The notes beneath the pieces are model-generated. The model was not told where the DNA came from. It worked only from the letters and a program-made list of their open reading frames with translations, and made no database searches. A stretch of 64,000 nucleotides of DNA from Clostridium sp. Marseille-Q2269 (GTDB lineage Bacteria > Bacillota > Clostridia > Clostridiales > Clostridiaceae), in the NCBI RefSeq assembly GCF_943736985.1, contig NZ_CALSFS010000010.1, positions 102,085 to 166,084 on the forward strand. Reading direction: 5' to 3'. Below, in pieces: positions 2,239 through 18,417 of this stretch. Position 1 is the first letter of the stretch. Every line of letters starts with the position of its first letter. Both the position numbers and the translations under genes were made by a program.

Positions 2239-2240
2239 TT
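2205..2240 (-). terminator. manA intrinsic terminator
   Basis: Inverted repeat CACTGCCT / AGACAGTG (one mismatch) with A-rich sequence on one side and T-rich on the other, so it can work in both directions. On the minus strand it directly follows the manA stop. Confidence 0.75.
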
Positions 2241-3216
2241 ATTCAACTTCTTTTAATATTTCATTTTTTATTTTATTTATATCAGGTACATAACTTTTCA
2301 AAAGTTTCATGTTTCCCTTTAAAGTGTATTCACCTAAATAAGCTGGAACTAAGAAACTGTCACCTTTCTTAATTTGTTCTTTATTGTCACCACTTGTTAT
2401 TATTCCTTCACCTTCAACACAAGTAAATATAAAAAATCTTTCTTTGTCGCTACATTCCACTGCTTCCTCTAAAATATCATAAAGTTCTAATGAAAATTCT
2501 TCACACAAGCATAAATAAGTTTTTTCGTATCCACTTTCTATAACTTTTAAGCCTTTTCTTTTATTTGAGCTTAATTGTAAGTTAATTACATCTAGTGCCT
2601 TCTTTACATGAATTTCTCGTCCTCTATTATAATCGTAGACTCTGTATGTGGTATCACTATTTTGTTGAATTTCTGCTATTACCACACCTTCTCCAATAGC
2701 ATGGATAAGGCCACTTTTTACAAAATATACGTCACCTTTTTTTACTTGAACTTTATTTAAATGTTTTTCAACATCTCCTGATTCAAGTGCATCTTTTATA
2801 TCTTGCTTTGTTACTCCTTCTTTTGTCCCTACCACAAGATTTGCACCTTCAAATGCATCTACTACATACCATACTTCTGTTTTTCCTAATTCACCCTCTA
2901 CTTTTCTTGCATATTCATTTTCAGGATGCACTTGAACAGATAAAGGCTCATTAGCATTTATAAGCTTAACTAAAAGTGGAAATTTTTCTTTATCTATTTT
3001 TGTTCCTAATAATTCATCTTTATATTCTTCTATAACCTGCTTTAAAGTTTTTCCCTTAAAGATACCATTAGATACAATACTCATACCATTTTCATGACAA
3101 GCTACATCCCAACTTTCTCCAATATTTCCCTTAGGTAAATTATCTCTAAATAATTCTAAATGGCGTCCACCCCATATTTTTTCATAATATAAATTCTCAA
3201 ATTTTAATGGATACAT
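2239..3216 (-). CDS. manA: mannose-6-phosphate isomerase, class I (short form)
   Basis: Interconverts mannose 6-phosphate and fructose 6-phosphate in the cytosol, using zinc. The 325-residue length and the opening YPLKFENLYYEKIWGGRHLE fit the short Bacillus-type ManA. The metal-site segment SVQVHPENEYA near residues 94-104 and GLIHAIGEG near 169 are present. An in-frame ATG two codons upstream (3222) touches the AGGAGT ribosome site, so the ATG at 3216, seven bases after it, is the better start. It is downstream of the Gfo/Idh gene on the same strand after a 192-base gap, and ends at its own terminator. It may serve general mannose metabolism rather than the neighbouring glycyl radical locus. 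Confidence 0.9.
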   Translation of the reverse strand: MYPLKFENLYYEKIWGGRHLELFRDNLPKGNIGESWDVACHENGMSIVSNGIFKGKTLKQVIEEYKDELLGTKIDKEKFPLLVKLINANEPLSVQVHPENEYARKVEGELGKTEVWYVVDAFEGANLVVGTKEGVTKQDIKDALESGDVEKHLNKVQVKKGDVYFVKSGLIHAIGEGVVIAEIQQNSDTTYRVYDYNRGREIHVKKALDVINLQLSSNKRKGLKVIESGYEKTYLCLCEEFSLELYDILEEAVECSDKERFFIFTCVEGEGIITSGDNKEQIKKGDSFLVPAYLGEYTLKGNMKLLKSYVPDINKIKNEILKEVE

Positions 3217-3408
3217 AATCATACTCCTATTCTTAATTTTATATTTTAAAATTATTTGTAGTTTCTTAAAAAAATTATATATTACTATTCATCTAAATGT
3301 AATGGTTTATTGTATAAATAAAACTATTTTTTTCTACATACTAGGGTAAATATCTTATATCTGTATAAAAAACATATAATATATAAACTTTTCTTTTAAT
3401 TATAAAAT

Positions 3409-4392
3409 CTATAAATCTGATGGAAATACTACGCCCATCTGCTTTCTAGCTTTTTGTAATATTCTCATTACAATTTTTGAAGTACTATAAGAATTTATAC
3501 TTGACTCTAATTTTCCTGATTTAATAATTTCTACAAATTCTTTTGCTTCATAATACATTGTATCCTTTGATTGAGATATTGTAATATCTTCTACTTCACC
3601 ATTTTTATATGAAATTTTTATATTTTCTGGAGTGTGTATCTTATCTATAATCATATTACCATTCTCACCTTGTATTTCACTCGGTATAGAAGAATTAGCT
3701 ATTTTAGAATGCATTATTACAGCATCCATATCTTCATAATTTAAAATTAAACTTCCTTCTCCATCAACTCCAGATTCTAATAAAACACCTGTTGCGCATA
3801 CTTCTTTAGGTTCTCCAAAAAGATGTACTAACGGATAAATGCAATAAATACCTATATCCATAAGGGATCCATTAGAAAATTTAGGATTAAATGTGTTTGG
3901 ATTCTCTCCACCCTTATATTTATCATATCTTGAAGAGTATTGACAATAGCTGCTAAAGTATCTTCTTATTTTACCTATCTTATGTAGATTATTTTTTATA
4001 ACATAAAAGTTTGGTAAAAAAGAAGATTTCATTCCTTCCATTAATGCTACTTTATTTTCTTTAGCTATATTTATTATTTCCTCCAACTGTCTCAAATTAG
4101 ATGTTATAGGTTTTTCACACATAACATGTTTTTTATTTTCTAAAAATATTTTAGCTTGAGAGGCATGAAAAGAATTGGGACTGGCTATATATACTGCATC
4201 TATACAATTACTTTCCGCCATCTTGTTAATATCCGTAAAAATTTTACTTATTGAATATTTACTCCCGAATTCCTTTGCTTTTTCTTCTGTTCTAGAATAT
4301 ATTGCAGTTAACTGAAAATCTTCTACTAACTCAGCACATCTTATAAATTCTTCTGTTATCCAACTAGTTCCTACTACTCCAAATCTTATCAA
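3409..4392 (-). CDS. Gfo/Idh/MocA family NAD(P)-dependent oxidoreductase
   Basis: Dehydrogenase of 327 residues with an N-terminal Rossmann domain (IRFGVVGTSWIT at 2-13) and the family hallmark CEKPIT at residues 92-97, whose lysine is part of the catalytic site; the C-terminal half is the usual alpha/beta substrate domain. Members act on sugars, inositols and anhydrosugars such as 1,5-anhydrofructose. The start is TTG at 4392, seven bases after AGGAAG. It is the gene after the GntR regulator on the same strand (116-base gap with a weak hairpin at 4421-4442), so it may belong to the glycyl radical operon. A sugar or anhydrosugar oxidoreductase role is inferred from that context. Confidence 0.85.
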   Translation of the reverse strand: MIRFGVVGTSWITEEFIRCAELVEDFQLTAIYSRTEEKAKEFGSKYSISKIFTDINKMAESNCIDAVYIASPNSFHASQAKIFLENKKHVMCEKPITSNLRQLEEIINIAKENKVALMEGMKSSFLPNFYVIKNNLHKIGKIRRYFSSYCQYSSRYDKYKGGENPNTFNPKFSNGSLMDIGIYCIYPLVHLFGEPKEVCATGVLLESGVDGEGSLILNYEDMDAVIMHSKIANSSIPSEIQGENGNMIIDKIHTPENIKISYKNGEVEDITISQSKDTMYYEAKEFVEIIKSGKLESSINSYSTSKIVMRILQKARKQMGVVFPSDL

Positions 4393-4420
4393 AAAATCAC
4401 TTCCTATATTACATATTTAT

Positions 4421-4442
4421 AAAAATGTTATTCAACATTTTT
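4421..4442 (-). terminator. weak hairpin between GntR and Gfo/Idh genes
   Basis: AAAAATGTT / AACATTTTT with a 4-base loop, followed by a T-run on the minus strand. All A/T stem except two G:C pairs, so it may cause only partial termination within the operon. Confidence 0.35.
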
Positions 4443-4508
4443 TACTATAACAAATTATGAGTTGTTTACAAATAAAAAATTCAAACTACATAATTAAAAA
4501 CTTTAATG

Positions 4509-5174
4509 TTAAGTGGATATAATTGTTACATCTGAATTATACTTAATCTGTTTACTTATTTGAATTAGTACATTGTTAGAATATAAATTATGTGTAGTTT
4601 GGATAGAATGTGTAACCTTTTTAGGGGTATATTGGTTTATTATATGTTCATCCTCTATTAGTACACTTTTTAATTCTTTTCTATCATGTGTTAATGCATA
4701 TTTCATCTCATCTTGAAAATAGCTTAAAATGCTGCCTTCACATTTTTTTACATTAAAATTTTCAAATAAATCATAAGGTACATATCCCTCTTCATAAATC
4801 ACATTATCTTCTGTTTTAATTATTCGTTTATATGTGTGTAAATATTTTGAATTAAACTTCTCTCCAATATGATTTAAAATTGTTTTAAACTCTAACACAA
4901 TTGTAGAATGTTTTGCTTTACTTTCAACACTTAAAGATGCAATAGTAGTATTTAAATAAAATTCTCTAGGATTTATATAATATCCTTTTCCTTGTTTAGA
5001 ATTAACATATCCTTTTTCTATTAACTTTTTTAAAGCCCTTCTTACAGGCTCTCTAGATACGTTATATCTTTTACATATCTCATTTTCAGAAATTAACAAT
5101 TCTCCTTCTTTAAATTCTTCATTTAATATTAATTTCTTTAATTCACCGTATACATAATCTTTTTTGGTAGTCAT
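4509..5174 (-). CDS. GntR family regulator (HutC-type, UTRA domain)
   Basis: Transcription factor of 221 residues with a winged helix-turn-helix at about 5-70 (SENEICKRYNVSREPVRRAL and GYVNSKQGKGYYI) and a C-terminal effector domain of the UTRA/HutC kind. Such proteins usually repress a catabolic operon until a sugar phosphate or similar ligand binds. ATG at 5174 follows AAAGGAAGG. It is the third gene after the glycyl radical enzyme and its activase. A 16-base palindrome of the type bound by GntR proteins occurs twice before that operon and once over the promoter of the PTS regulator, making this protein the likely regulator of both units. The effector is unknown. Confidence 0.88.
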   Translation of the reverse strand: MTTKKDYVYGELKKLILNEEFKEGELLISENEICKRYNVSREPVRRALKKLIEKGYVNSKQGKGYYINPREFYLNTTIASLSVESKAKHSTIVLEFKTILNHIGEKFNSKYLHTYKRIIKTEDNVIYEEGYVPYDLFENFNVKKCEGSILSYFQDEMKYALTHDRKELKSVLIEDEHIINQYTPKKVTHSIQTTHNLYSNNVLIQISKQIKYNSDVTIIST

Positions 5175-5212
5175 TTATATCCTTCCTTTATGCAACTGTA
5201 GTATATAAAGTT

Positions 5213-6130
5213 TTAAATCTTTTCATTTTCAATTATACCATTTTTTAATCCATTTTCTTTTAAAATTTTTTTCCACTTAATTTTATTTTCTTCTGAAGGA
5301 ATTTGAAACTTAGTCTGTTGATTTACATATTTAAATCTATTAACTTTTATTAAATTATGATATGGTAAAATGTCTACTTGCTTGATATTTTTATATTTAT
5401 TTGAAATACAAGAAATAGCTTTAAAATGTTCTTCTGTATCATTTACACCTGGAATTATAGGACATCTTAAGGTTATAATTTTATTATTATTATTTAATAA
5501 TTCTATTATCTTATAAAAATCAAATTCTCTTCCAACATATTCTTTGTATCTTTCTTTATCTGTTAACTTATAATCTAACAAATATTCATCTACAAAATCT
5601 ATTGTTTTTTCTATATTATTATTAATATCATATCCACTAATATCTAAACAAATATTAATACTTAGTTCTTTTAATTTATGGCCCAGTTCACAAATAAAAT
5701 CTATTTGGTTAAGAGCTTCCCCTCCACTAAAGGTAACTCCACCTTTAGAATTATCATAATAATCTTTATCTTTCATAATAATATTAATTAATTCCTCAGT
5801 TGTATATTTCTTTCCATACTTACTATAAGCTTTCATTGGACAAACTTCTATTAAATCAAAATTTTCATCATGCTTTGAAAAATCTATTTTTAATTCATTA
5901 TTTATTATTTCTATGCCATCACCTTTTACATATTTAACACATTTGCCACATAAAATACATTTCTTAGGATTGTAATTAAATTGTATTTTAGGAGAAATAG
6001 ATTCTGGATTATGACACCATTTACATCTTAAAGAACAACCCTTAAAAAATAGGGTTGTTCTTATTCCTGGACCATCATTAACAGAAAAGCGTTGTATATC
6101 AAATAATATTCCTTTTTTACTCATTGACAC
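5213..6130 (-). CDS. glycyl radical enzyme activating protein (radical SAM)
   Basis: Uses S-adenosylmethionine and a [4Fe-4S] cluster to place the radical on the partner glycyl radical enzyme encoded just upstream. The radical SAM motif is GCSLRCKWCHNPES with Cys32, Cys36 and Cys39. An inserted ferredoxin-type cluster follows (Cys58, Cys61, Cys64 and Cys97 in VCPMKA). GGVTFSGGEAL is the SAM-binding GGE motif. Length 305 is normal for PflA-like activases of the dehydratase group. The start is ambiguous: GTG at 6130 is seven bases from AAGGAAGG, while ATG at 6124 is thirteen away. The gene is 15 bases downstream of the enzyme gene. Confidence 0.93.
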   Translation of the reverse strand: MSMSKKGILFDIQRFSVNDGPGIRTTLFFKGCSLRCKWCHNPESISPKIQFNYNPKKCILCGKCVKYVKGDGIEIINNELKIDFSKHDENFDLIEVCPMKAYSKYGKKYTTEELINIIMKDKDYYDNSKGGVTFSGGEALNQIDFICELGHKLKELSINICLDISGYDINNNIEKTIDFVDEYLLDYKLTDKERYKEYVGREFDFYKIIELLNNNNKIITLRCPIIPGVNDTEEHFKAISCISNKYKNIKQVDILPYHNLIKVNRFKYVNQQTKFQIPSEENKIKWKKILKENGLKNGIIENEKI

Positions 6131-6145
6131 TTACTTCCCTTCCTT

Positions 6146-8434
6146 TTAATCATTACAGGTTCTTGCCATAATTTCTCTTTGAACATCATCTTCCAAATTA
6201 ACAAATCTTGCACTAAAGCCACCTACACGAACTGTCAAGTTTTTATATGCTTCTGGATTTTTATATGCTGCTTCTAATTCTTCTTTTCCTACAACATTTA
6301 TCATTAATTGGGGTCCGCCTTTTTTAAAGTAGGTAGAAAATAGAATCTTTATTTTATCTTTTTCTTTATTAAACATTTTTTTAGAAAATTTAATATTTTG
6401 TACACTTCCTCCATGAATATCTGCTCTTATTTTAGCTAATGAGTTTAACATTGCAGTTGGGCCATTTATATCAGCTCCACTTTGTGGATTATTAGCATTA
6501 CTCATATATAAACCAGCTATTCTTCCATCTGGTGATGATGCTGTAGCTCTCCCCCATTCTGTATTAACTTGATTATTTATTACAACTACTAGCCAACTAT
6601 CCAATCCAACTTTAGGAGCTTGTTTAGCTACTTCATTACAAGTAAATTCATGAAGTTCCACTGCTAATGAATCTACATAGTCATCATCATTTCCAAATTT
6701 AGGGCACTCTTTCATTTCTTCTTGAACATCTTCAAATCCATCAAAATCTTTTGATAGTATTTCTTGAATTTCAGTTAATGTGTATTTTTTATCATCAAAT
6801 ACTAATTTTTTAATTGCTGCTAATGAATCTGCAGTACTCATATTACCATACATTTCATTTGTACCACCTAGATGTTTTACACCACCATTTAAAACCATTT
6901 TACCTCTACCTATACAATCATCTATTAAAATACTAGTATATATAAATCCTACCTTTCTATTCATAACCTTATAGGAATGTGCATGAGCTTCTGCTGTTAA
7001 TTCAATATAGTATGTTAATAGCTTTTTATATTCGTTGAAGAATTCATCAAAACTTTTAATGTGCTCCATTTTCTTTAATTTAAGTTCACCATATTTATAT
7101 TTATAATTCCACTGATCCACACCATCATGTATAAATATTGTTAAAGCTTTCAATAAATTAATGCATGCATTTGGTGTACCTACTCCTTGGCCTGAAAGTA
7201 CAAATTCTCCACAACCAAAAGGAACATATTGTTCTGCTGTTCTTTCATCTACATGCATTGTTTTCATAACAGCAGGAACATTTACATCATCATTATAAAT
7301 AATAGGATAAGTTGTTCCTTCACCTATAGAATTAAGAGCTATATCATATATTGCAGGATCCATTCCTTTATAAATTCTTAATGTAAATTGTGGTTCTACT
7401 AATTTTGCTCTTTTTGTAGCTTCTATAGCTAGTCTGCAAAAAACATCTGCATTTTTAGGATTTCTTCTTCCTCTGCCTCCAACAATAACCCTACCATTTA
7501 CATTTGTTCTTTTAACTTCTATCAATCTCCATTGAGACTCTATATATTCAATTGCTTCTTCTTCTGTAATTATTTTATTTTCCAAATCATGAACTAAATA
7601 ATCTCCTAAATAGTCATCCATTCTACCATAATTAACTACACCGGATACTGATGAATATAACCAAGCTAGTTGCATTGCAGAAATAAAAGAATTTGGTTTA
7701 TCATTTTCAATTGTTTTAAGAGCTTTTAACAACTTCTCCATTTGATTTTTTCTTTTAGGAGAAAGACTTTCTTTTTGAAGCTTAACTTCAACCTCTCTTA
7801 TGTGATGCGTAACTACATTTTGCAAAAGCTCTAATGCTTCAATCATAACCTGATATTCTTCTGTTGAATTAGGATTTATTTTTCTTTTTGAATTTATCAA
7901 ATCTTTTAATCCATTTATTCCATTTTCAAGTAATAAATTATAATTTAAATACATACCACTAAAACGTGCAGTAATAATTGCTGGAAATAATACATCAACA
8001 AAACGCCCTAATACGTTTTCTTTTAGTCGTTCTCTATAAAAAACCTCTCTTGTATCATTTTCTTTCCAATATTCTTTTAAATAATCAATATCTTTTTTAT
8101 ACTTATCTCCAAGCTTTTCAAGTAATGAATCTAATTTTTCTAATCTACAATAATGCCCTGGTCCTCCAACAGATGTAACACTTCCAAAACCAATTAGTAA
8201 TGCATCTAATCTACCTAAAATTAAATCATCTTCATACATTGGTCTAAACACTTTTGGGAAAAGTACTTTTAAACACTCTATTTCTCTTTTTAATTTTTCT
8301 TCATCTGTATATTTGCTGTGTACTCTTGTATACTCTAGCATAGTTTTTAATTGTTCTAATTCATTCATATATAAAGGTTCTTTTGGTGCTACTGCTACAT
8401 TGGTGTCATTTTTTCTTAATTCTCTTATTACCAT
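6146..8434 (-). CDS. glycyl radical enzyme, C-x-E eliminase type (PflD/YbiW-like candidate)
   Basis: 762-residue anaerobic radical enzyme. The thiyl Cys408 lies in VPFGCGEFV, and Glu410 two residues on matches the catalytic base of dehydratase or lyase members (usually GCVE), so this is not a true pyruvate formate-lyase, which has Cys-Cys. The radical loop near the end is VRVGGFSARF, with Gly739 as radical site. Gly in place of Val between Cys and Glu is unusual. The length is close to E. coli PflD (about 765), which opens 1,5-anhydromannitol 6-phosphate and lies beside a fructose-type PTS. This gene is also flanked by a fructose-type PTS, so a PTS-imported sugar alcohol or anhydrosugar phosphate is the likely substrate (inference). 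ATG at 8434 follows GGAGGGTG. Confidence 0.9.
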   Translation of the reverse strand: MVIRELRKNDTNVAVAPKEPLYMNELEQLKTMLEYTRVHSKYTDEEKLKREIECLKVLFPKVFRPMYEDDLILGRLDALLIGFGSVTSVGGPGHYCRLEKLDSLLEKLGDKYKKDIDYLKEYWKENDTREVFYRERLKENVLGRFVDVLFPAIITARFSGMYLNYNLLLENGINGLKDLINSKRKINPNSTEEYQVMIEALELLQNVVTHHIREVEVKLQKESLSPKRKNQMEKLLKALKTIENDKPNSFISAMQLAWLYSSVSGVVNYGRMDDYLGDYLVHDLENKIITEEEAIEYIESQWRLIEVKRTNVNGRVIVGGRGRRNPKNADVFCRLAIEATKRAKLVEPQFTLRIYKGMDPAIYDIALNSIGEGTTYPIIYNDDVNVPAVMKTMHVDERTAEQYVPFGCGEFVLSGQGVGTPNACINLLKALTIFIHDGVDQWNYKYKYGELKLKKMEHIKSFDEFFNEYKKLLTYYIELTAEAHAHSYKVMNRKVGFIYTSILIDDCIGRGKMVLNGGVKHLGGTNEMYGNMSTADSLAAIKKLVFDDKKYTLTEIQEILSKDFDGFEDVQEEMKECPKFGNDDDYVDSLAVELHEFTCNEVAKQAPKVGLDSWLVVVINNQVNTEWGRATASSPDGRIAGLYMSNANNPQSGADINGPTAMLNSLAKIRADIHGGSVQNIKFSKKMFNKEKDKIKILFSTYFKKGGPQLMINVVGKEELEAAYKNPEAYKNLTVRVGGFSARFVNLEDDVQREIMARTCND

Positions 8435-8471
8435 AAATACACCCTCCTAAATATTTATCATATTATGATAT

Positions 8472-8487
8472 ACTTATAATTACAAGT
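8472..8487. promoter_or_regulatory. putative GntR operator 1 (downstream of -10, GRE operon)
   Basis: ACTTATAATTACAAGT, a near-perfect palindrome around TAATTA. It sits between the proposed -10 box and the ribosome site of the glycyl radical enzyme gene. It is the exact reverse complement of the site at 12628-12643. Confidence 0.65.
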
Positions 8488-8507
8488 TTTATAAAGCCGT
8501 ATACTTT

Positions 8508-8536
8508 ATTATATCATTTATATATAAATCATTGAA
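8508..8536 (-). promoter_or_regulatory. promoter of the glycyl radical operon
   Basis: On the minus strand, a -10 TATAAT (8508-8513) is preceded by TTCAAT (8531-8536) at exactly 17 bases. One operator lies on each side of it, 15 bases upstream of the -35 and about 20 bases downstream of the -10. Confidence 0.55.
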
Positions 8537-8550
8537 TTTCAATAATTATG

Positions 8551-8566
8551 AATTGTAATTACAAGT
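8551..8566. promoter_or_regulatory. putative GntR operator 2 (upstream of -35, GRE operon)
   Basis: AATTGTAATTACAAGT shares the core TGTAATTACA with the other two copies. With operator 1 it brackets the promoter at a centre-to-centre distance of 79 bases, which would allow looping. Confidence 0.65.
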
Positions 8567-8686
8567 TAATTTTATATCTTATTTTCATATGAGTCAAGTT
8601 AAATTTAAATGAACTATGGAATAGTTATATTATTTATAATTTTGTTAAAAATTACTTTGATTTTTTAATAATTATAAATTTAAATT

Positions 8687-8705
8687 ACGTTATAACTTAT
8701 AACGT
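8687..8705. repeat. perfect 9-bp palindrome upstream of the GRE promoter
   Basis: ACGTTATAA-C-TTATAACGT, a perfect inverted repeat with a 1-base centre, about 150 bases upstream of the GRE promoter and about 30 bases from the PTS terminator. It looks like a protein-binding site, not a terminator. The binder is unknown; the PRD activator encoded nearby is one candidate. Confidence 0.5.
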
Positions 8706-8735
8706 TAATATTAAATCATTATATAACCATATAAA

Positions 8736-8768
8736 AACAGCAACCTAATTTTTATTAGATTGCTGTTT
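8736..8768 (-). terminator. terminator of the PTS operon
   Basis: AACAGCAACCTAAT pairs with ATTAGATTGCTGTT (one mismatch) around a short loop. The minus strand continues into a T-rich stretch. It follows the EIIABC stop by a few bases and separates the PTS unit from the glycyl radical unit. Confidence 0.8.
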
Positions 8769-8772
8769 TATA

Positions 8773-10677
8773 TTATGCTGCTGAGATAGATTTTTTTCTT
8801 CTTTTATTGAGTAATTTTTTCATAAATATTGTTGCAAATCCAGTTACAAGAGAACCTGCCAACATTGCTAACAATGCTAATAATGGTTTATTTATAGCTC
8901 CAAATAATACAACTATTGGGCCACCATGAGCTACGTTATTTCTAATTCCGAATAAAAAACCTAAAACGCACGCTACTACACTACCTAACATATTAGAAGG
9001 TATTATAGCTAAAGGATCACTAGCTGCAAAAGGTATAGCCCCTTCTGAAATACCAACAAGTCCCATTGCTAAAGCTGCTTTACCATTAGCTACTTCTTCT
9101 TCATTAAACAACTTCATTTTTTTACCTATGAAAGTTGCTATTGCCATACCAATTGGTGCTACTGGAATAGCACAAGCTTGTGCTCCCATGAATTGAGTTT
9201 GTCCATTAGCAATTAACCCTACACTAAACATAAATGCTACTTTACCAAAAGGTCCGCCCATATCAAATCCTTGCATCAAACCTATAACAATACCAATAAC
9301 AACAAGACTTCCTGAAGATAGAGATTGTAGCATTCTAACTAAAGAATCCATTAATGAAGCTATTGGTGCACCTATAACTAATATAAATATTGCAGATATA
9401 GTTAATGAACCAAGAATAGGTATTATCATAATTGGAACTAAAGGCTCCATCATCTTAGGGAATTTCCATGATTTAATCCATTTAACAAGATATCCAGCAA
9501 TAATTCCTGCTATAATAGCTCCTATAAACCCAGTACCTGAAGCTGCATGATAAAAAGAACCATCATTAGCTATCCATCCGCCTATCATACCTGGTGCTAA
9601 TGCCGCTCTGTCTCCAATTCCATAAGAAATATAACCAGCAAGTATAGGTATCATAAGTTTAAATCCTACTGTACCAACATTAAGTATTTGGTTCCAAAAA
9701 CTATCTTTCGGTATCTGAAGACCATTTGGAGTAGGCTTACCACCTACAGCAAGAGAGATTGCAATTAATAATCCTCCTATTACTACGAATGGTATCATAT
9801 ATGAAACACCATTCATCAAATATTTATATAGTCCTGTTTTTTCTTTTGAAGAACTATTTGAAGATGTTTTTTTATTATTAGATGCGTATATAGGTATATT
9901 ACCATTTAAAGCCTCATCTATAAGTTCCTTAGGTCTATCTATAGCTTCTTTTACATTTACAAATATAACTTTTTTTCCATTAAATCTATCTAATTCAACT
10001 TGCTTATCACAAGCTACAATAATAGCCTCAGCTTTATCAATTTCAGCTTTTGTAGGTACATTTTCAACTCCTACAGACCCATTTGTTTCTACTTTTATAT
10101 CCACTCCAACTTCATCTGCATATTTCTTTAAAGCCTTTGCTGCAAGATAAGTATGAGCAATACCTACAGGACAACCTGTAACACCTATTAAAAATCTTCC
10201 ATCTTTCTTCTTTTCATTAGACTCTTTTTCCTCTTCTTTAAAAAGATTAAGAACTTCCTTTGCACTGTTAGCTTTCAACAAAGCTTGTTTAAATGAAGCA
10301 TCAAGTAATCTTGAAGTTATTTCAGACAATGTTTTTACATGTAAATCACTAGAATTATCTGGCATAGCTATTAAAAAGAATACTTTAGATTTCTCTCCAT
10401 CTAAAGAGTTACAATCTATACCTTTTTTACTTATCCCTATAGCAATGGAAGCTTGTTTTACATTGCTTGATTTAGCATGTGGCATTACTACACCATCTTC
10501 AAAAGCCGTAGACATTTGACTTTCTCTTTCTAATACATCATTTACAAAAAGCTTTACATTTGTAATCTTATCATTTTCATATAAAAGTTCTGAAAGTTCT
10601 TTTATAGCTTCTTCTTTTGTGTTTCCCTTTAAAGAAACTTTAATTAAATTTATATTTATCATATCATTAAAATTCAT
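8773..10677 (-). CDS. PTS fructose-family transporter, EIIABC fusion
   Basis: Membrane permease that imports a sugar or polyol and phosphorylates it. Domains in order: EIIA at 1-150 with phospho-His67 in VVMPHAKSS; EIIB at about 160-260 with phospho-Cys169 in IGVTGCPVGIAH; a Ser/Lys linker; and EIIC at about 285-625 with many membrane helices (YMIPFVVIGGLLIAIS, ISEGAIPFAASDP). The 634-residue length is that of a full FruA-type fusion. ATG at 10677 is four bases past the regulator stop, with the ribosome site AGAGGTGA overlapping that stop, so the two are translationally coupled. Given the adjacent glycyl radical enzyme the substrate may not be fructose. Confidence 0.92.
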   Translation of the reverse strand: MNFNDMININLIKVSLKGNTKEEAIKELSELLYENDKITNVKLFVNDVLERESQMSTAFEDGVVMPHAKSSNVKQASIAIGISKKGIDCNSLDGEKSKVFFLIAMPDNSSDLHVKTLSEITSRLLDASFKQALLKANSAKEVLNLFKEEEKESNEKKKDGRFLIGVTGCPVGIAHTYLAAKALKKYADEVGVDIKVETNGSVGVENVPTKAEIDKAEAIIVACDKQVELDRFNGKKVIFVNVKEAIDRPKELIDEALNGNIPIYASNNKKTSSNSSSKEKTGLYKYLMNGVSYMIPFVVIGGLLIAISLAVGGKPTPNGLQIPKDSFWNQILNVGTVGFKLMIPILAGYISYGIGDRAALAPGMIGGWIANDGSFYHAASGTGFIGAIIAGIIAGYLVKWIKSWKFPKMMEPLVPIMIIPILGSLTISAIFILVIGAPIASLMDSLVRMLQSLSSGSLVVIGIVIGLMQGFDMGGPFGKVAFMFSVGLIANGQTQFMGAQACAIPVAPIGMAIATFIGKKMKLFNEEEVANGKAALAMGLVGISEGAIPFAASDPLAIIPSNMLGSVVACVLGFLFGIRNNVAHGGPIVVLFGAINKPLLALLAMLAGSLVTGFATIFMKKLLNKRRKKSISAA

Positions 10678-10681
10678 TATA

Positions 10682-12613
10682 TCACCTCTTAGATTTAATA
10701 AGTTTCATAAAGTTTTCAAAACAATCTGCCTTTACTAATTCCAATACTCCTTTTTTATCATCTAATATTGAAAAAAGTGTATCAAATATATTTGTAAAAT
10801 CTTCATCTGTCATTTTTTCAAGGGCTAATAAAAGTACAATTTGAACCATATTCTCACCCCATTGAATAGGTTTCTCTAATATCCCTATAGCAATCTTTGA
10901 ATCAATAACGTTTTCAAACAATGCATGAGGTATAGCTACTAAATTACTAATAGATGTGGATGATATTTGTTCTCTTTCTATAACTGATTGTAAAAATTCT
11001 TCTGTAACACAATTTTTATCGTTTAGTAATTTACTTAATATTTTTATGACTTCAAACTTATCCTTAGTTTTTATTCCTTTAATATATAAATCCTTGTGGA
11101 ACAAATCATACAATTTAATTTTTTCACTTACTTTTTCTGAGTCTTCTATAACATCTCTTATTTTTTGTAAATCTTTTTTCCCTAATAAAGAACTAACATA
11201 TATAACAGGAACATTATTAACCTTAATAGGTATAGTACTTAATATTAAGTCCGGTTTTTTTAATAATACTTCTTCAATTTTATAAGATGGATGTATACCC
11301 GTTATAATAATATTAGGAAATGTATTTCTTATTTTAGAAGCTAATAACTGTGCTGTACCTATCCCTGTAGAGCAAATTATAGCTACCTTTTTAATTGTTT
11401 TTTTCCCTATATCCTTTTTTCTTTCAAGAGAAGCTCCTATATGCATTGCTATATATCCTATTTCATCTTCATTAATCTTTAGATTAATATTATGCTCTAA
11501 TACTTTGCTAGCAACAACACCCATTTCAAAGGCACGAGGATATTCTTCTTTTATTTCATTTAATAATGGATTTCTTAAATTCATATTATACTTCACTCTA
11601 TTAACGGCAGGCTTTAAATGTAAAACTAATCCATAAATTAATTTTTCGTCTTTTGAAAAATTAATTTTGTATACTTCCTCTAATTTTGTTAACATGTCAT
11701 ATATAATTTTAAGTAAATTACTTCCTATAACAGCTTCTAGTTCTTCCATATTAAGCTCTTCATCTTTTAATGCTTTAATTCCAAGTAAATGTATTGTGAT
11801 ATATGCTTTCTCTCCATGGGGTATACTGATACAAAACTCTTTTTCTAAAGTATTTACAATTTTCTCTGCCATTTCATATTCTTTTTTACCCTTTAGATTT
11901 GTAATTTCAGTTGGAGGTAAGCTAATATCTTTTCCTTCTTTAATTCTTTTAATTGCTATTGCAATGTGTATTATTAAATTATTAAAAGCAACATCAGATA
12001 ACTTTAACGAAGTTATTTCGTCCATATCCAGTATAATATTTCTTATTTTATCAACATTCATATTTAAAATATCTTCTATATATTTTGTATCACAAATACT
12101 CATAAAGTAATCTGATATAGAATATCTAAACTGCATTTCATCCCCATGTATTTTTATGCCATAATTAGGTCTTTTAATTAATTCTAAATTATTCTTTTTA
12201 ACCCACTTCTCAACTTTATCAATATCGTTGTCCACAGTTGATTTACTTACATATAACTCATTGGACAATTGTTCCAAAGTTATAAATTTGCTAGTATCTA
12301 AAAGTCTTTTTATTATATAAAAAACTCTGTCTTCTGGAAGTATTGCTATATTGTCTTTTGTCCCTTCAGTATATTTTTTTAATACTTTGAAAGTGTTGTT
12401 ATTATATGGATTAACACTATATCCAATTCTAGGTGTAGATGTAATTTCTATTTCTTCTGTCTTTAATTCCTTATTTAATAGTTTTATATCATTCCGTATA
12501 GTCCTTGAAGATACTCCAACTACTTTTGATAAATACTCTCCTGTAATGGGCCCATTACATTCTATAAATTCACTTATTATTTTCTTTTTGCGCGCATCAT
12601 AACTCAAATTCAT
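10682..12613 (-). CDS. PRD-containing PTS-regulated activator (BglG/MtlR/LicR family)
   Basis: About 643-residue regulator controlled by PTS phosphorylation. It has N-terminal helix-turn-helix domains (KKKIISEFIECNGPITGEYL and SNELYVSKSTVDNDI), two PRD domains at about 180-400 with conserved histidines (AYITIHLLGIKA, GYIAMHIGASLE), an EIIB-like domain (AIICSTGIGTAQLL, phospho-Cys) and a C-terminal EIIA-like domain (NLVAIPHALFE, phospho-His). A longer frame begins at 12646, but ATG at 12613 directly follows the ribosome site GAGAGGTGAG. It is cotranscribed with and probably activates the EIIABC gene. Its promoter is overlapped by a GntR-type operator and preceded by a 10-bp palindrome. Confidence 0.9.
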   Translation of the reverse strand: MNLSYDARKKKIISEFIECNGPITGEYLSKVVGVSSRTIRNDIKLLNKELKTEEIEITSTPRIGYSVNPYNNNTFKVLKKYTEGTKDNIAILPEDRVFYIIKRLLDTSKFITLEQLSNELYVSKSTVDNDIDKVEKWVKKNNLELIKRPNYGIKIHGDEMQFRYSISDYFMSICDTKYIEDILNMNVDKIRNIILDMDEITSLKLSDVAFNNLIIHIAIAIKRIKEGKDISLPPTEITNLKGKKEYEMAEKIVNTLEKEFCISIPHGEKAYITIHLLGIKALKDEELNMEELEAVIGSNLLKIIYDMLTKLEEVYKINFSKDEKLIYGLVLHLKPAVNRVKYNMNLRNPLLNEIKEEYPRAFEMGVVASKVLEHNINLKINEDEIGYIAMHIGASLERKKDIGKKTIKKVAIICSTGIGTAQLLASKIRNTFPNIIITGIHPSYKIEEVLLKKPDLILSTIPIKVNNVPVIYVSSLLGKKDLQKIRDVIEDSEKVSEKIKLYDLFHKDLYIKGIKTKDKFEVIKILSKLLNDKNCVTEEFLQSVIEREQISSTSISNLVAIPHALFENVIDSKIAIGILEKPIQWGENMVQIVLLLALEKMTDEDFTNIFDTLFSILDDKKGVLELVKADCFENFMKLIKSKR

Positions 12614-12627
12614 CTCACCTCTCTTGT

Positions 12628-12643
12628 ACTTGTAATTATAAGT
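12628..12643. promoter_or_regulatory. putative GntR operator 3 over the regulator-PTS promoter
   Basis: ACTTGTAATTATAAGT, the exact reverse complement of operator 1. It covers the proposed -10 box of the PRD-regulator/PTS operon, where a repressor would block transcription. Confidence 0.65.
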
Positions 12644-12940: not shown

Positions 12941-13720
12941 TTATTCCTTGTGCTTTTCTTCTTCATAAACAGAAGGTAATATTTTTGCTAAGTTGCTATA
13001 TTCTTTAATATTATGAAGAAGCAACCTCTTTGCTACTTCTAATGGCACCTTATCACCTTCTGGTAAAATCTTAACTGGTTTTTTATCTACAATATTATAT
13101 CCAATCCAAAATCTTGAACGAAGTTCTATTCCATGTTCTACTGATCTTATTGAATGACACATAACTGCATCATCCCCATTTCCTGAAACTATTGACAAAA
13201 CATTAGATTGTTTTAAAAGTTTCATATCAAATCCCATATCTTCTGGAGACATAAAGTTTATATAAATAGTCCTTGATCCAAATCCTGTATCCTCATCAAC
13301 AGTGTGAGTGACTCCCCATATTCTTTCTTCCATAGGAATGTTTTTATTCAATAGCCTTTCCCGTTTTGTAGTTTTAATTCCAAAATGATCTTCTCTATTC
13401 CATATTTTATATCTTAATGGTTCTAATCCATGCCAAGCAAACCACCAATCAAACATTTCTTTAGTAACTTTGGGCATTTTTATAATATTAGAAACAAATC
13501 CAGTACCATTATCCATTACACAATAACCTACTTCAGCATCAAGGTATCCTATGTTTAATAATTCATCCTTATTTTCTATAGTTAGTGCTTCCTGTGATTT
13601 TATTGGTCCTTCCATGATTTTTTCTAGTGAATCTTTTGGCTGTTTTGCCATTTCCATATAATAATATTTAGAATAGCTAATATTCTTTTCATAATCTTCT
13701 AACTCTTTTATATATGACAT
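12941..13720 (-). CDS. PhlG / phloretin hydrolase-like C-C hydrolase (DAPG hydrolase family)
   Basis: 259 residues, the size of phloretin hydrolase (Phy) of Eubacterium ramulus and close to 2,4-diacetylphloroglucinol hydrolase PhlG. These zinc enzymes cut the carbon-carbon bond joining an acyl group to a phloroglucinol ring. Visible family segments are FDWWFAWHGLEPLRYKIW (90-107), GVTHTVDEDTG (136-146) and HGIELRSRFWIGY (196-208). LLLHNIKEY gives His236-x3-Glu240, the zinc His/Glu pair spacing known in PhlG; His97 is a likely further ligand. ATG at 13720 follows GGGGGAAT. It is the last of three same-strand genes with two flavin reductases. The family call is firm; the substrate is inferred. 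Confidence 0.8.
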   Translation of the reverse strand: MSYIKELEDYEKNISYSKYYYMEMAKQPKDSLEKIMEGPIKSQEALTIENKDELLNIGYLDAEVGYCVMDNGTGFVSNIIKMPKVTKEMFDWWFAWHGLEPLRYKIWNREDHFGIKTTKRERLLNKNIPMEERIWGVTHTVDEDTGFGSRTIYINFMSPEDMGFDMKLLKQSNVLSIVSGNGDDAVMCHSIRSVEHGIELRSRFWIGYNIVDKKPVKILPEGDKVPLEVAKRLLLHNIKEYSNLAKILPSVYEEEKHKE

Positions 13721-13888
13721 ACTTATTCCCCCATTATTTATTTTTACATATATTGTTTGTTCATTGATTTTAATAATTATAATATTCTATAATTATTTCA
13801 AACTGCAAAATCTTAATTATTTTAGGATTAATTATATTAACACAGTAAATACTTATAAAACAGTTTGTCAATAATATGTAAATAAATA

Positions 13889-15889
13889 TCAAATTTCTAT
13901 TGCCATATTAAATCCTGCATGAACTGCACTATATACATTACCTATTTCTTTGCCATCTCCAATTACATAAACTTCTGTTTCTGGAATTGTATGTCTCAGT
14001 GTATCTATAGTTTTCCTACGCCTTTTCATTCCTAAAGCTAATAGAACTGTATCAGCCTCATATTCCTTCCATTGAAACTTAGAATTAATTGTCTTGATGC
14101 CTTTTTCGGTAATTTCTTCCAATTTAGTATTAGTTACAACTTTAACTCCATGTTTTTTTAGTAAAGATTCTAGGGAAAATCTATTAATTAATGAAGCTCC
14201 ATTAAGTAAAGCCTCTGAACCTTGCATTTCTATTAAAGTAACTTCTTTGCCTTTCATAGCTAGACTAACTGCTGATTCTGCACCTGTCAGTCCACCACCA
14301 ATTATTATAACGCTTTGTCCAACCTCTACTTTTCCACAATCTGCATCACCTGACCAATGAACATGACCCTTATGAATTCCTGGAATATTAGGAATAAGTG
14401 GTGTTGCACCAACAGCTAAAATTAATGCATCTGGATTTTCTAATTTTATAGTTTTCTCTGTAGCTTCTGTATTTAACTTTACTGTTGCTTTACTCTTTAA
14501 AGTTTGATTAACTATCCACTTTAAGTAATTTCTTAGATCTTTTTTAAATTCAAGATCTATAGCATAATTTAAACTACCACCTAATTTATCTTCTTTTTCA
14601 AAAAGAACAACTTCATGTCCTCTTTCAATAGCAGTAAGTGCAGCTTGCATTCCAGCTGGTCCACCTCCAACTATTACTACCTTTTTCTTACTATCTGCCT
14701 TTGGAATTTTACCATTAGGATAATCTATTTCACGTCCATTTATTGGATTAACTGCACATCTAGTCTTTTTAAAAAAAGCTGAACGACCACAACATGTATT
14801 ACAACGTAAGCATGGTCGTATATCATCTGTTTTTCCAAGAACAGTTTTCCTCATAAACTGAGGATCTGCTACAAAAGGTCTTGCCATTGCTACAAAATCA
14901 ACTAATCCTCTTGATAATATTTCTTCTGCATTATCTAAAGTCATTACCGAACCAACTGCAGTTACATATATATCGCTACCAACTGCTTTCTTAATTTCTT
15001 CCGCAAAATGTATATTTAACATATACGGTATATACATAGGTTGAATCATATATTGAATTGTAAATTGGTTAGGAAGCATACCAGCGGAAACATGTAGAAT
15101 ATCAATCTTATCTTTTATTAATTTTACAAATTCAATTACTTCCTCAGTTTTCATGCCACCATGAACCAGTTCATCTGCACTAATTCTATATTCTATAATA
15201 AAATTTTCACCAACTCTTCTGCGCACAGCATCTAATAATTCAATACAGAACCGTGCTCTATTTTGAAAACTTCCCCCATATCTGTCTGTGCGTTTATTTA
15301 CATAAGGAGATAAAAACTGTGCCGGAAGCATGCCATGAGCTCCATGAATCATTACCATTTTAAAGCCACTATCTTTGCATCTACCAGCAGCATCTGCATA
15401 ATCTTGAATAGTTTTATTTATCAATGAAATATCCATTTCCTCAACTTCTCCTGGAGTCTTTCCTTGCAATTTTGAAAAATATTCATCAATTTCTGCTGGT
15501 TTTGAAGTGGAGCTTACTGGTTTTAATCCTTTAGATGCTAGATTTATTGAATTAGCAAACCGTCCTCCATGATTTAGTTCTATAGAAATTAATGCTCCAA
15601 ATTTTTGTACTTCATCTGCTAAATGATCTAGTCCCATCTTAACATTATCATTACCTAAATTAATTTGTCCTTCATGATCCATAGCATGTTCCCAGTTCAC
15701 AGCAGAATCTCCTACTGTAACTATTGCTGCACTTCCCCTTGCAAAAGTTTTATAAAATTCTATAAGTTCCTTTGTAATCCATCCTTCTGGTGTGGCCATA
15801 CAAGGTACCATTGGTGCTACTTCAATTCTATTTTTAAATTCTACACCTTTAATTATTATAGGTTCAAATACATGCTTATACTTCTTCAT
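13889..15889 (-). CDS. Old Yellow Enzyme / BaiCD-BaiH type NADH:flavin ene-reductase
   Basis: 666-residue flavoenzyme of the 2,4-dienoyl-CoA reductase group. Residues 1-350 form the FMN TIM barrel (opening FEPIIIKGVEFKNRIEVAPM; substrate-site HGAHGMLPAQFLSPYVNKR). An iron-sulfur site follows (PCLRCNTCC with another Cys eleven residues later). A C-terminal FAD/NAD(P)-binding half begins KKVVIVGGGPAGMQAAL and has a second GGGLTGAES motif. The family reduces activated C=C bonds, for example in bile acids, cinnamates and chalcones. ATG at 15889 follows AGGGGTG. It lies between the PhlG-like hydrolase and a flavodoxin-fold protein, which suggests reduction of a chalcone-like intermediate (inference). 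Confidence 0.9.
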   Translation of the reverse strand: MKKYKHVFEPIIIKGVEFKNRIEVAPMVPCMATPEGWITKELIEFYKTFARGSAAIVTVGDSAVNWEHAMDHEGQINLGNDNVKMGLDHLADEVQKFGALISIELNHGGRFANSINLASKGLKPVSSTSKPAEIDEYFSKLQGKTPGEVEEMDISLINKTIQDYADAAGRCKDSGFKMVMIHGAHGMLPAQFLSPYVNKRTDRYGGSFQNRARFCIELLDAVRRRVGENFIIEYRISADELVHGGMKTEEVIEFVKLIKDKIDILHVSAGMLPNQFTIQYMIQPMYIPYMLNIHFAEEIKKAVGSDIYVTAVGSVMTLDNAEEILSRGLVDFVAMARPFVADPQFMRKTVLGKTDDIRPCLRCNTCCGRSAFFKKTRCAVNPINGREIDYPNGKIPKADSKKKVVIVGGGPAGMQAALTAIERGHEVVLFEKEDKLGGSLNYAIDLEFKKDLRNYLKWIVNQTLKSKATVKLNTEATEKTIKLENPDALILAVGATPLIPNIPGIHKGHVHWSGDADCGKVEVGQSVIIIGGGLTGAESAVSLAMKGKEVTLIEMQGSEALLNGASLINRFSLESLLKKHGVKVVTNTKLEEITEKGIKTINSKFQWKEYEADTVLLALGMKRRRKTIDTLRHTIPETEVYVIGDGKEIGNVYSAVHAGFNMAIEI

Positions 15890-16003
15890 AAAAAATACAC
15901 CCCTAATATTTATACTATAATTTAAAGCATGCTATATAAGTTTTTTAAGTAAACCTATATGGTATGTTTTAAAATTCAAATAGATAATTATAATACTATG
16001 ATT

Positions 16004-16957
16004 TTATTTTTTTATTTCGATACCTGGAAATTTTAATTCTTTATATTTAGCAAACTTTTCTTTAACAATAGCTAAATTTTCTTCTGTATAAAATCCACCT
16101 TGTGTATGCTCAATTTCTCTTAAATGCTTTTCTCTTCCCTCTACAGATGTACGATCACGACTTAAACCATCTTCCTGAATCACAAACTTCCACTTGCCAT
16201 CTTCTGTCTTTTCTAAATTTCCACCTGCACCACATACTTGACATTCAACTGGGAAACGTACACCATCCCATTGCATTTCTCCCAAAATTAACGCATTAGA
16301 ATGGCAATGTGGGCACCATCCCATATTCTCTTCTCCCATCCATGCTCTTTCTTTAGCTGGAGTATTTAATGATTTCATAATGTTTTCTCCCATTTTATGA
16401 GCACGCTGAATCATGTCATCATGTAATAAGCATTGTTTTGGTGCTGGTACTCTAGTTGCTAAATACATGTCTACTACTTTAAAATCATTTGTAAAACAGG
16501 TAGCTTGTATACTTTCTAAAGCCATTGATTGCCATGAACGAGTAGAACCACCAACTGAAATTAATCCAGCAACTCTATCTTTATGTTCAATTGCTCCAAT
16601 TAATTCTAAAAATGCTGACTCATATGCTAAATTTCTATGCATAAATTTTAAATATGTGGCTGTTGCCGTTAAATCATATGTAGGCGCTGATACAATTAAG
16701 GCATCTACATTTAACATTACTTTCATGATTTCTTCTTTATCATCTTTTTTACTTAGTGTACATCCAACATTTTTCCCATTAATCATCCCCTGTGTGCAAG
16801 CTGTACAACCTGAACATTCCATGATATTATAATCTCTTAAATTAATCATCCTTACATGTGCACCTTGTTCTTCACATGCAAGTAATGCCTCTTTCAATAA
16901 AATTTCCGAATTTGAATCCTTTCTTCCTGCTGTAATACCTAATACTGTAAAACTCAT
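16004..16957 (-). CDS. flavodoxin-fold iron-sulfur flavoprotein (FMN reductase family, FLR-like candidate)
   Basis: 317 residues. The N-terminal 200 residues are a flavodoxin-like NAD(P)H:FMN reductase fold (VLGITAGRKDSNSEILLKEA; SAPTYDLTATATYLKFMHR). A compact cysteine motif CSGCTAC at 49-55 with another Cys further on is typical of iron-sulfur flavoproteins. The C-terminal part has a zinc-ribbon-like set (CPHCHSN ... CQVCGAGG). ATG at 16957 follows AAAAGGAGATG. It is the first gene of the three-gene reductase/hydrolase set and diverges from a PucR regulator. Gut flavone reductase FLR, from what I recall, is a flavoprotein of similar size, so flavone-type C=C reduction is one possibility; a plain electron-transfer role is another. 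Confidence 0.75.
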   Translation of the reverse strand: MSFTVLGITAGRKDSNSEILLKEALLACEEQGAHVRMINLRDYNIMECSGCTACTQGMINGKNVGCTLSKKDDKEEIMKVMLNVDALIVSAPTYDLTATATYLKFMHRNLAYESAFLELIGAIEHKDRVAGLISVGGSTRSWQSMALESIQATCFTNDFKVVDMYLATRVPAPKQCLLHDDMIQRAHKMGENIMKSLNTPAKERAWMGEENMGWCPHCHSNALILGEMQWDGVRFPVECQVCGAGGNLEKTEDGKWKFVIQEDGLSRDRTSVEGREKHLREIEHTQGGFYTEENLAIVKEKFAKYKELKFPGIEIKK

Positions 16958-17163: not shown

Positions 17164-18417
17164 ATGCAGAAGAAATATGATTTATATAAAAAGAAATATG
17201 AACTTTATGATAGTTTATTCACTAAAAGTACTGTAGATGAAATTGTTAATACATCTGAGAATTTTTTAGATAATCCCATTTTCATTTTAGATACAAGCTA
17301 TCGTATTATTGCCAGATCCAACCTTGCAAAGACTGAAAATTCAAGTGTTGAATCACATAACGGAGAAAATTATCTTCTATCAAATACTATTAAATTGATG
17401 AAAAAAGATAAATGCATGGATACTATTTATAAAACAAATACTGCTTTCTTTCATTATTCTAATGAAAATTTAATCTTTTGTTCAATTAGAGTTAATTGTA
17501 TCACCATTGCATATATAACTATTTTGCAAAGCAAATGTACCTTTCAAAAAGAAGATCTAGATTTAACAAATATATTATCCAAAGTGCTTTCTATACAAAT
17601 GCAGAAAGAGAACCTATTTATAAGTAACTCTGGATTAGATGAAGAATACTATTTAATGGATTTATTATTAAATGGTTTAGATAGTATCAGTTACGCCAAA
17701 GAACGTTTAGCTCGTAGTAATTTTATCTTAAATAAAAATCTAGTAATACTTTCAATACCATTTAAACAAAAATACAAAGATTATAGACATAACTTTGCAT
17801 TAAAGCAATTAATTCAATCTGTAAAAACCATATTTAAAAATTGTATTTCAGCATATTATTCTGATAAAATTATTTTTCTTATTAGCAGCAAAGATGAGTA
17901 TATTATTTATGACAATAGAAAAAAAGATTTATTAGAATTTTTAAATTTAAATAATTTGAAATGTGGGGTCAGTATTGTTTTTCAAAACTTATTGGATATA
18001 CAAGACTTTTTTAATCAATCAGTGCATGCCTTACAATTATCAATATATATGAAAATAAGTAACAGACTTAATTTTTTTGAAAATTATATAGAATATTACT
18101 TATTTTATATAGCTACACATCCAACCAATGATTTATATAAACTAAATTTAATAAATTTAGTTCATCCTTGGATTAAAAAACTTATAAAATTTGATAATGA
18201 GAATAATACCCAATTATTTGAAACTCTAAAAACTTATCTAAAAAATGATAGAAATGCTAATAATACTTCCAAACAACTGCATATACATAGAAGTACTTTC
18301 TTTTATCGTTTTAATAAAATAAAGAGTTTGATTAATATGCCTTTAGAAGATAATAATAATCTATCTAAATTAGAGTTATCATTTAAGATTTTAAATTATA
18401 ATGCATTACTTAAATAG
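17164..18417 (+). CDS. PucR/CdaR-family transcriptional regulator
   Basis: 417 residues. An N-terminal sensor region (about 30-130, with PIFILDTSYRIIARSN resembling a PAS/GAF-like sensor), a middle GGDEF-like regulatory part, and a C-terminal PucR helix-turn-helix (FETLKTYLKNDRNANNTSKQ, then LHIHRSTFFYRFNKIK, about 350-405). These proteins activate catabolic genes in response to a small ligand. ATG at 17164 follows AAGGAG by six bases. It is one of the few plus-strand genes and is divergent from the flavodoxin-fold/ene-reductase/hydrolase set, so it most likely controls that set through the 206-base shared intergenic region. No clear operator was identified. Confidence 0.85.
   Translation: MQKKYDLYKKKYELYDSLFTKSTVDEIVNTSENFLDNPIFILDTSYRIIARSNLAKTENSSVESHNGENYLLSNTIKLMKKDKCMDTIYKTNTAFFHYSNENLIFCSIRVNCITIAYITILQSKCTFQKEDLDLTNILSKVLSIQMQKENLFISNSGLDEEYYLMDLLLNGLDSISYAKERLARSNFILNKNLVILSIPFKQKYKDYRHNFALKQLIQSVKTIFKNCISAYYSDKIIFLISSKDEYIIYDNRKKDLLEFLNLNNLKCGVSIVFQNLLDIQDFFNQSVHALQLSIYMKISNRLNFFENYIEYYLFYIATHPTNDLYKLNLINLVHPWIKKLIKFDNENNTQLFETLKTYLKNDRNANNTSKQLHIHRSTFFYRFNKIKSLINMPLEDNNNLSKLELSFKILNYNALLK

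Follow-up and report, generated by a model that had tools for sequence, protein, structure and literature searches.

In a 64,000-nt stretch of contig NZ_CALSFS010000010.1 from Clostridium sp. Marseille-Q2269 (hereafter the window), we found a real, well-conserved operon centred on a glycyl radical enzyme (GRE) from an uncharacterised deep clade. Judged by its sequence, the enzyme belongs to a separate clade and matches no studied enzyme. The operon probably imports a sugar-like compound and splits it with the radical enzyme, and the GRE very probably acts on a sugar phosphate delivered by the phosphotransferase system (PTS). Some oxygen-tolerant relatives appear to use the DNA switch of the GRE for an oxygen-using enzyme as well. 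All genes of the locus lie on the minus strand, in the order PRD regulator, EIIABC, GRE, activase, GntR, Gfo/Idh and ManA:

12628..12643, no strand: operator-like palindrome ACTTGTAATTATAAGT, 5′ of the PRD regulator
10682..12613, minus strand: PRD-type transcriptional regulator (Pfam: HTH_11, Mga, two PRD, EIIB-like and EIIA)
8773..10677, minus strand: fructose-family PTS EIIABC (Pfam/NCBIfam: PTS_EIIA_2, IIB and EIIC)
8551..8566, no strand: operator-like palindrome AATTGTAATTACAAGT, 5′ of the GRE
8472..8487, no strand: second operator-like palindrome ACTTATAATTACAAGT, 5′ of the GRE
6146..8434, minus strand: GRE of 762 aa, with Cys408, Glu410 and radical Gly739 (Pfam: PFL-like and Gly_radical)
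5213..6130, minus strand: radical SAM GRE-activating enzyme (Pfam Radical_SAM; TIGR02494, 266.7 bits against a cut-off of 174)
4509..5174, minus strand: GntR-family regulator, candidate binder of the palindrome (Pfam GntR; a weak UTRA match, below the Pfam cut-off)
3409..4392, minus strand: Gfo/Idh/MocA oxidoreductase (Pfam GFO_IDH_MocA)
2239..3222, minus strand: class I mannose-6-phosphate isomerase ManA (TIGR00218, 203.4 bits against a cut-off of 116.2)

The initial annotation had recognised the GRE (Cys408-Gly-Glu410, loop RVGGF), its activase, the GntR and PRD regulators, the Gfo/Idh protein and the fructose-type EIIABC. These assignments were confirmed by Pfam and NCBIfam models and by the conserved order in Maledivibacter; ManA, which begins 186 nt 3′ of Gfo/Idh, had been overlooked. 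Maledivibacter halophilus has the identical order PRD-EIIABC-GRE-activase-GntR-Gfo, and its GRE is 87% identical to the window GRE. The gene order in the window is therefore not due to chance. The longest open reading frame (ORF) of the PRD regulator runs from 12646 to 10682. We set the start at the ATG at 12613 for two reasons: a stretch resembling a ribosome-binding site comes just before this codon, and the longer start lies within the palindrome. Among five E. coli PTS proteins compared, FrwC was nearest to the EIIC domain of the window EIIABC (44.6% identity); the IIBC part was 39% identical to FruA and 31.5% to MngA.

The window GRE carries the features of its superfamily: PFL-like and Gly_radical domains, an active-site Cys (Cys408), a radical-glycine loop (RVGGF at 736-740, with Gly739 as the radical residue) and a paired activase. 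Two residues past the active-site Cys it has the Glu that marks eliminases, and we assume that Glu410 is used in catalysis. In eliminases, the substituent is lost from the carbon neighbouring the abstracted hydrogen. Of 105 aligned GREs, 77 were of this type (hereafter window-type GREs), and GC[G/T]E was found in 77 of the 77 (75 with G and 2 with T), so the predicted PTS-linked GRE with an eliminase Cys-x-Glu motif was borne out. The radical glycine was likewise retained in 77/77, unlike in the aminoacyl radical enzymes described in the excerpted text of Fu et al. 2024 (PMC11528403), which are also uncharacterised branches of the superfamily.

Two loops were absent from all 77 window-type GREs and present in all 28 other rows of the alignment. 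One comprises 7 columns after W264, and the other about 14 columns ahead of NGRVIVGG. The first reads E-S-N-G-H-S in YbiW and is similar in several other GREs; its N-G-H-S stretch presumably has a role in substrate binding. The comparison rows were 17 eliminase-type, 10 PFL-type (pyruvate formate-lyase) and one NrdD (L139). One eliminase-type row (L187) carries GCVV in place of Cys-x-Glu. The labels of L042 (HypD), L188 (HpfG) and three PFLs rest on scores above NCBIfam cut-offs, and the others on motif or similarity. Nine further residues (E51, R157, R315, Q349, Y380, Y488, E527, N621 and N648) were kept in 76 or 77 of the 77 window-type GREs and were missing from 18 comparison rows (the 17 eliminase-type and NrdD).

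In a quick IQ-TREE tree of 46 GREs, a branch of 2.13 (SH-aLRT 100) split off the 30 window-type rows from the YbiW, PflD, HypD, HpfG and CutC-like rows, among which the longest single branch was 1.35. The PFL outgroup branch was 3.6, the program warned of meeting long branches, and the attachment point of the window-type clade is unsure. The PflD, YbiW, HypD and CutC-like rows, subtypes with which the initial annotation had proposed to compare the enzyme, all stayed outside the clade. The window GRE scored below every listed NCBIfam cut-off: 294 against 678 bits for the subfamily model TIGR01774, and 91-240 against 994-1150 bits for the equivalogs HypD, CutC, HpsG, HpfG, IAD, HPAD and PFL. Its best sequence matches in the PDB were the B12-independent glycerol dehydratase 1r8w (247 bits) and YbiW (221 bits). 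Glycerol dehydratase shares the GRE fold and Cys-x-Glu with it and was the first Foldseek match (TM 0.86) of its AlphaFold model (pLDDT 88.9), although the identity is only 25-27% and the window GRE lacks the stretch holding N-G-H-S. Structural matches of the model to several eliminases were similar in strength. YbiW matched glycerol dehydratase at 551 bits and PflD at 489, and for both YbiW and PflD the scores against glycerol dehydratase and CutC far exceeded those against the window GRE.

The locus had initially been filed with YbiW and PflD of E. coli. According to the summary of Ma et al. 2024 in the review PMC12441222, these are 1,5-anhydroglucitol- and anhydromannitol-6-phosphate lyases, and the titles of structures 8id7 and 8id0 agree with this assignment. 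They are also Cys-x-Glu GREs tied to PTS uptake, PflD adjoining fructose-like PTS genes. However, their identities to the window GRE are only 28% (YbiW) and 25% (PflD), both have the loops absent from the window family, and the clade is separate. We therefore rejected membership in this group and kept the other part of the proposal, a PTS-fed radical sugar-phosphate lyase, as very probable. The earlier suggestion that the product may not be the one made by PflD and YbiW is also supported.

The window GRE might nevertheless have converged on the same chemistry, cleaving the C1-O5 bond of a 1,5-anhydrohexitol-6-phosphate (1,5-anhydromannitol or another stereoisomer) and so forming a 1-deoxyketose-6-phosphate. 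We regard this as doubtful. The similarity of EIIC to FrwC agrees with it, and so do the three loci with a YbiW- or PflD-type GRE near the window-type GRE that are described below. On the other side are the low identities, the separate clade and the two missing loops. Such a route would also need an FsaA/B-type aldolase (FSA). The earlier observation that none is present at the locus holds across the whole 64 kb, where no FsaA match was found at E<=1e-6, and no FSA match was found in four of the nine Vibrio carriers of a window-type GRE. All nine enteric carriers have FSA matches; those in Firmicutes are 33-46% identical and may be transaldolases. Buttiauxella (G009) holds the window-type GRE besides YbiW (86%) and PflD (86%) in one genome. 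The route is disfavoured because of this genome and the four Vibrio carriers. Nor does the Gfo/Idh protein especially resemble 1,5-anhydrofructose reductase, which the initial annotation had named as a member of that family; we rejected that assignment, since the reductase gave 47-52 bits and the best matches among solved structures (2ho5 and 4iq0) gave 156.

A palindrome was first noticed 5′ of the GRE in the window, in Maledivibacter and in enteric loci. We counted it as TTGTAnnTACAA, with at most one mismatch and within 250 nt of a start, in 27 loci (those with EIIABC, and L002) collapsed to 23 distinct GREs. It stood ahead of 23/23 window-type GREs (shuffle mean 0.6) and 20/22 EIIABC genes (shuffles 0.57), and ahead of only 2 of the 245 other genes in those loci; many of the loci are related, so the count overstates their independence. 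The two EIIABC genes without the site were those of the window and Maledivibacter, where EIIABC comes after the PRD gene. The site also preceded 10/21 GntR genes and 1/2 PRD genes. The window PRD gene misses it only under the longer start, the site sitting just ahead of 12613, and the Maledivibacter PRD gene is preceded by a similar site. No site was found ahead of the 23 activases, four Gfo genes and one ManA gene of the EIIABC-type loci. It was absent, too, ahead of both YbiW-type GREs there, which again speaks against the anhydrohexitol route.

The palindrome is common to Clostridia, one Erysipelotrichaceae strain (L006), enterics and Vibrio. When a 16-nt form was searched with at most two mismatches, the sites of Maledivibacter and Citrobacter with 0 or 1 mismatch fell at the GRE locus, as did both Buttiauxella sites (2 mismatches); the reversed control likewise gave two sites on each strand of a genome, and the Citrobacter EIIABC site was missed. 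Further regulon members beyond the GRE locus are possible. GntR is the candidate regulator for binding TTGTAnnTACAA. The L003 GntR shares 42-46% identity with the enteric and Vibrio GntRs, and that of the window is more diverged (27-34%). A variant, ATTTGTATTAACAAAT, was found in 6/6 Erysipelotrichaceae loci of the 69% group, between the GRE and a divergent operon. The first divergent gene has no Pfam domain; it is followed by NanE, a SIS protein and mannose-type PTS genes in five of the six, the contig of the sixth (L004) stopping before the NanE position. The exact TTGTAnnTACAA form was absent from the five loci of this group looked at.

In three Vibrio loci, TTGTAnnTACAA lies between divergent genes for a PhyH-family Fe/2-oxoglutarate (Fe/2OG) dioxygenase and an NHL protein, so that one common site per locus precedes 3/3 PhyH and 3/3 NHL genes. 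PhyH was found in 3 of 247 Vibrionaceae genomes (E<=1e-40), all within the nine GRE carriers (p = 3.4e-5). In Persicobacter (L041, 14224-17205), a clade-B locus from another phylum, the PhyH gene stops 12 nt short of the GRE on its upstream side and a six-bladed propeller gene is nearby, with sulfatases and a GH20 enzyme around. The Vibrio pair would represent an oxygen-dependent attack on the same compound under the same operator. Here the anhydrohexitol route does well: PhyH would hydroxylate C1 and give mannose-6-phosphate, which would explain PhyH together with ManA. In Rhizobiaceae, according to the excerpted review PMC12441222, 1,5-anhydromannitol is hydroxylated aerobically at C1 to give mannose.

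For a survey of the genes within 6 kb of each GRE, ORFs were called with a simple program and grouped by single linkage. The GREs were assigned to clades A, B and C according to their identity with the window, and several contigs stop short. Near the 51 distinct GREs of clade A were EIIABC (22), NanE (21), ManA-type genes (10), DeoC (8), Gfo/Idh (7) and PhyH (3). A ROK kinase was near 9/13 clade-B GREs, GH38 mannosidases occurred in four clade-B loci, and Gfo/Idh was near 3/8 clade-C GREs. NanE near the GRE scored above the NCBIfam subfamily cut-off in 4/4 tested, and Parabacteroides has the order ROK-NanE-GRE-activase. Gfo/Idh also lies downstream of GRE and activase in Maledivibacter and in Vibrio L009 and L146. 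In L146, GRE, activase, Gfo and ManA (TIGR00218, 306 against 116 bits) are successive: 27 nt separate the first two, the middle pair overlaps by 4 nt and the last two are 2 nt apart. EIIABC, PhyH, NHL and GntR are alongside. The ManA proteins of the window and L146 are 32.5% identical over 120 residues only; to judge by this, the two genes were probably recruited separately. All ten enteric loci contain GntR, EIIABC, GRE and activase, the activase being scored by tblastn (in L017, L154 and L155 it lay behind an antisense frame in the ORF calls), and a tblastn search revealed no Gfo or ManA match in any of them. The GRE product should therefore enter ordinary metabolism.

NanE and ManA both act on manno-configured 6-phosphates. 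We tentatively favour, at rather less than even confidence, a radical reaction that splits a C-O bond in a 6-phospho conjugate brought in by the PTS and releases a manno-configured hexose-6-phosphate, with PhyH-NHL as its oxygen-dependent counterpart. To judge from its family, EIIABC would import and phosphorylate the sugar-like compound. The conserved residues suggest that the activase forms a glycyl radical at Gly739, which would generate a thiyl radical at Cys408; Glu410 would then serve as general base or acid in a radical 1,2-elimination that breaks the C-O bond. ManA and NanE hint at an intact manno-hexose-6-phosphate as product, and the sugar would therefore be the leaving group: mannose-6-phosphate in the window, and N-acetylmannosamine-6-phosphate (ManNAc-6-P) in relatives with NanE. 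By GRE chemistry, the substrate would therefore be a 6-phospho sugar conjugate with the vicinal hydroxyl on the other partner. Gene context suggests that ManA or NanE hands the released sugar phosphate to glycolysis and that Gfo/Idh acts on the co-product, a carbonyl compound, or in some related redox reaction. The whole unit would be controlled by GntR. Release of the sugar as leaving group fits the small enteric unit, which showed nothing beyond transport, radical cleavage and regulation.

The recurrence of NanE and ManA near the GRE could be read the other way, with both enzymes supplying a manno-configured substrate. The GRE would then consume mannose-6-phosphate or ManNAc-6-P, abstracting hydrogen at C1 and expelling the axial C2 hydroxyl or acetamide to yield a 2-deoxyaldonolactone-6-phosphate. 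The ROK kinases and GH38 mannosidases of clade B and the DeoC aldolase near 8/51 clade-A GREs would suit this, but the product would need downstream enzymes, none of which was seen in the enteric loci, and the benefit is not clear, as ManA alone takes mannose-6-phosphate to glycolysis. We consider it quite improbable. Cys-x-Glu enzymes also include C-N and C-S lyases, and the contexts differ widely over clades A, B and C. It is conceivable, though unlikely, that the GRE breaks a C-N or C-S bond, or catalyses something else, in an unrelated PTS substrate such as an amino-polyol or an N-linked sugar, ManA and NanE being incidental. In the window, and with hardly any gaps in Vibrio L146, ManA comes after GRE, activase and Gfo, which argues against chance neighbours, as do the five Erysipelotrichaceae loci in which the NanE operon diverges from the GRE across a shared palindrome-like site.

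The leaving-group reading would make the system analogous to the mannosylglycerate system (mng; MngR-MngA-MngB) of E. coli, a radical lyase replacing the mannosidase. Both have a fused fructose-family EIIABC, a GntR-type regulator and one cleaving enzyme, and mannose-6-phosphate is the proposed product here, but the window system has a GRE and an activase instead of a mannosidase. We rejected the window locus as a mannosylglycerate system itself: it scored 402 against a cut-off of 763 with the MngA model, and no GH38 was found among the ten window proteins scanned with Pfam.

Several observations weigh against the reading we favour. EIIABC is only 32-34% identical to MngA in the listed pairs and GntR 22-31% to MngR in five pairs, and in E. 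coli the mngRA region has no match to the palindrome. Hydrolysis could split a simple glycoside with no radical involved, so that only an ether bond would explain the use of a GRE. Only the ManA-type genes of the window and L146 exceed the TIGR00218 cut-off; five others (two in L015, one in L125 and two in L136) gave 69-109 against 116 bits. The window ManA, 186 nt downstream, may be a separate gene that is not co-transcribed, and the gene after Gfo in Maledivibacter encodes an arsenic-efflux-type protein, not ManA. The genome-wide co-occurrence of NanE is confounded. The palindrome was counted partly in the four loci used for its discovery, and its exact form is absent from nine other clade-A loci examined, mostly NanE-bearing (Erysipelotrichaceae of the 46-50% group, Parabacteroides and L140); operator and NanE are therefore joined only in the 69% group. 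A YbiW- or PflD-type GRE lies within 5 kb of the window-type GRE in L148 (Vibrio; YbiW-type, with an FSA gene above an NCBIfam cut-off), L127 (Erysipelotrichaceae; PflD-type, with an FSA-like gene) and L002 (YbiW-like, 38%). The full version, a radical glycoside or ether lyase with the sugar phosphate leaving from a PTS-delivered mannose or ManNAc conjugate, occurring in oxygen-sensitive (GRE) and oxygen-dependent (PhyH/NHL) forms under one GntR operator from Clostridia to Vibrio, is put forward as doubtful.

A scan of genome contigs gave 39 loci with a window-type GRE. Hosts of the clade are Clostridia, Erysipelotrichaceae, Enterobacteriaceae, Vibrio, Bacteroidota, Chloroflexota and a Treponema. 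Wider searches (E<=1e-110), each counting its own central genome among the matches, found it in 9/247 Vibrionaceae genomes, 8/246 Enterobacteriaceae, 34/145 Erysipelotrichaceae, 2/297 of Maledivibacter's order and 1/395 of Pelagihabitans' class. One genome has five matches to window-type GREs, four of them on a single contig with a tandem array (L156; G867 contig C69) and one with an internal stop. The Parabacteroides sequence NZ_OY725812.1 (L040), labelled a plasmid, carries dnaG, ftsH and lon and may be a piece of the chromosome.

Other neighbours were also seen. In L002 (213-8211) there are a corrinoid protein, a UroD-like methyltransferase and a RACo-type activator; DeoC and the YbiW-like GRE with its activase lie between this group and the window-type GRE, upstream of the latter. 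L015 (3344-5155) and its relatives encode a 603-aa protein without a Pfam domain, weakly similar to ManA (about 25%), whose gene diverges from the GRE and shares with it a palindrome-bearing upstream region. In the window, a DAPG-hydrolase-family protein, an old-yellow-enzyme/BaiCD-like ene reductase and an FMN-reductase-like protein adjoin one another at 12941-16957, followed by an ORF on the opposite strand at 17164-18417. The group is perhaps a cluster for the degradation of polyphenols (phloretin or flavonoids).

Many abundant GREs of bacteria in the human gut have no known function, according to the excerpted review PMC11574389. The window-type clade is set apart from the eliminases compared by a stem longer than any single branch among them (2.13 against 1.35). 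No paper naming both a GRE and an Fe/2OG dioxygenase was found in the open-access literature searched; if confirmed, the two enzymes in one regulon would be an unusual aerobic/anaerobic pair in sugar catabolism. The enteric version, consisting of PTS, GRE, activase and GntR, is a compact and testable unit, and the shared operator offers a direct route to the inducer.

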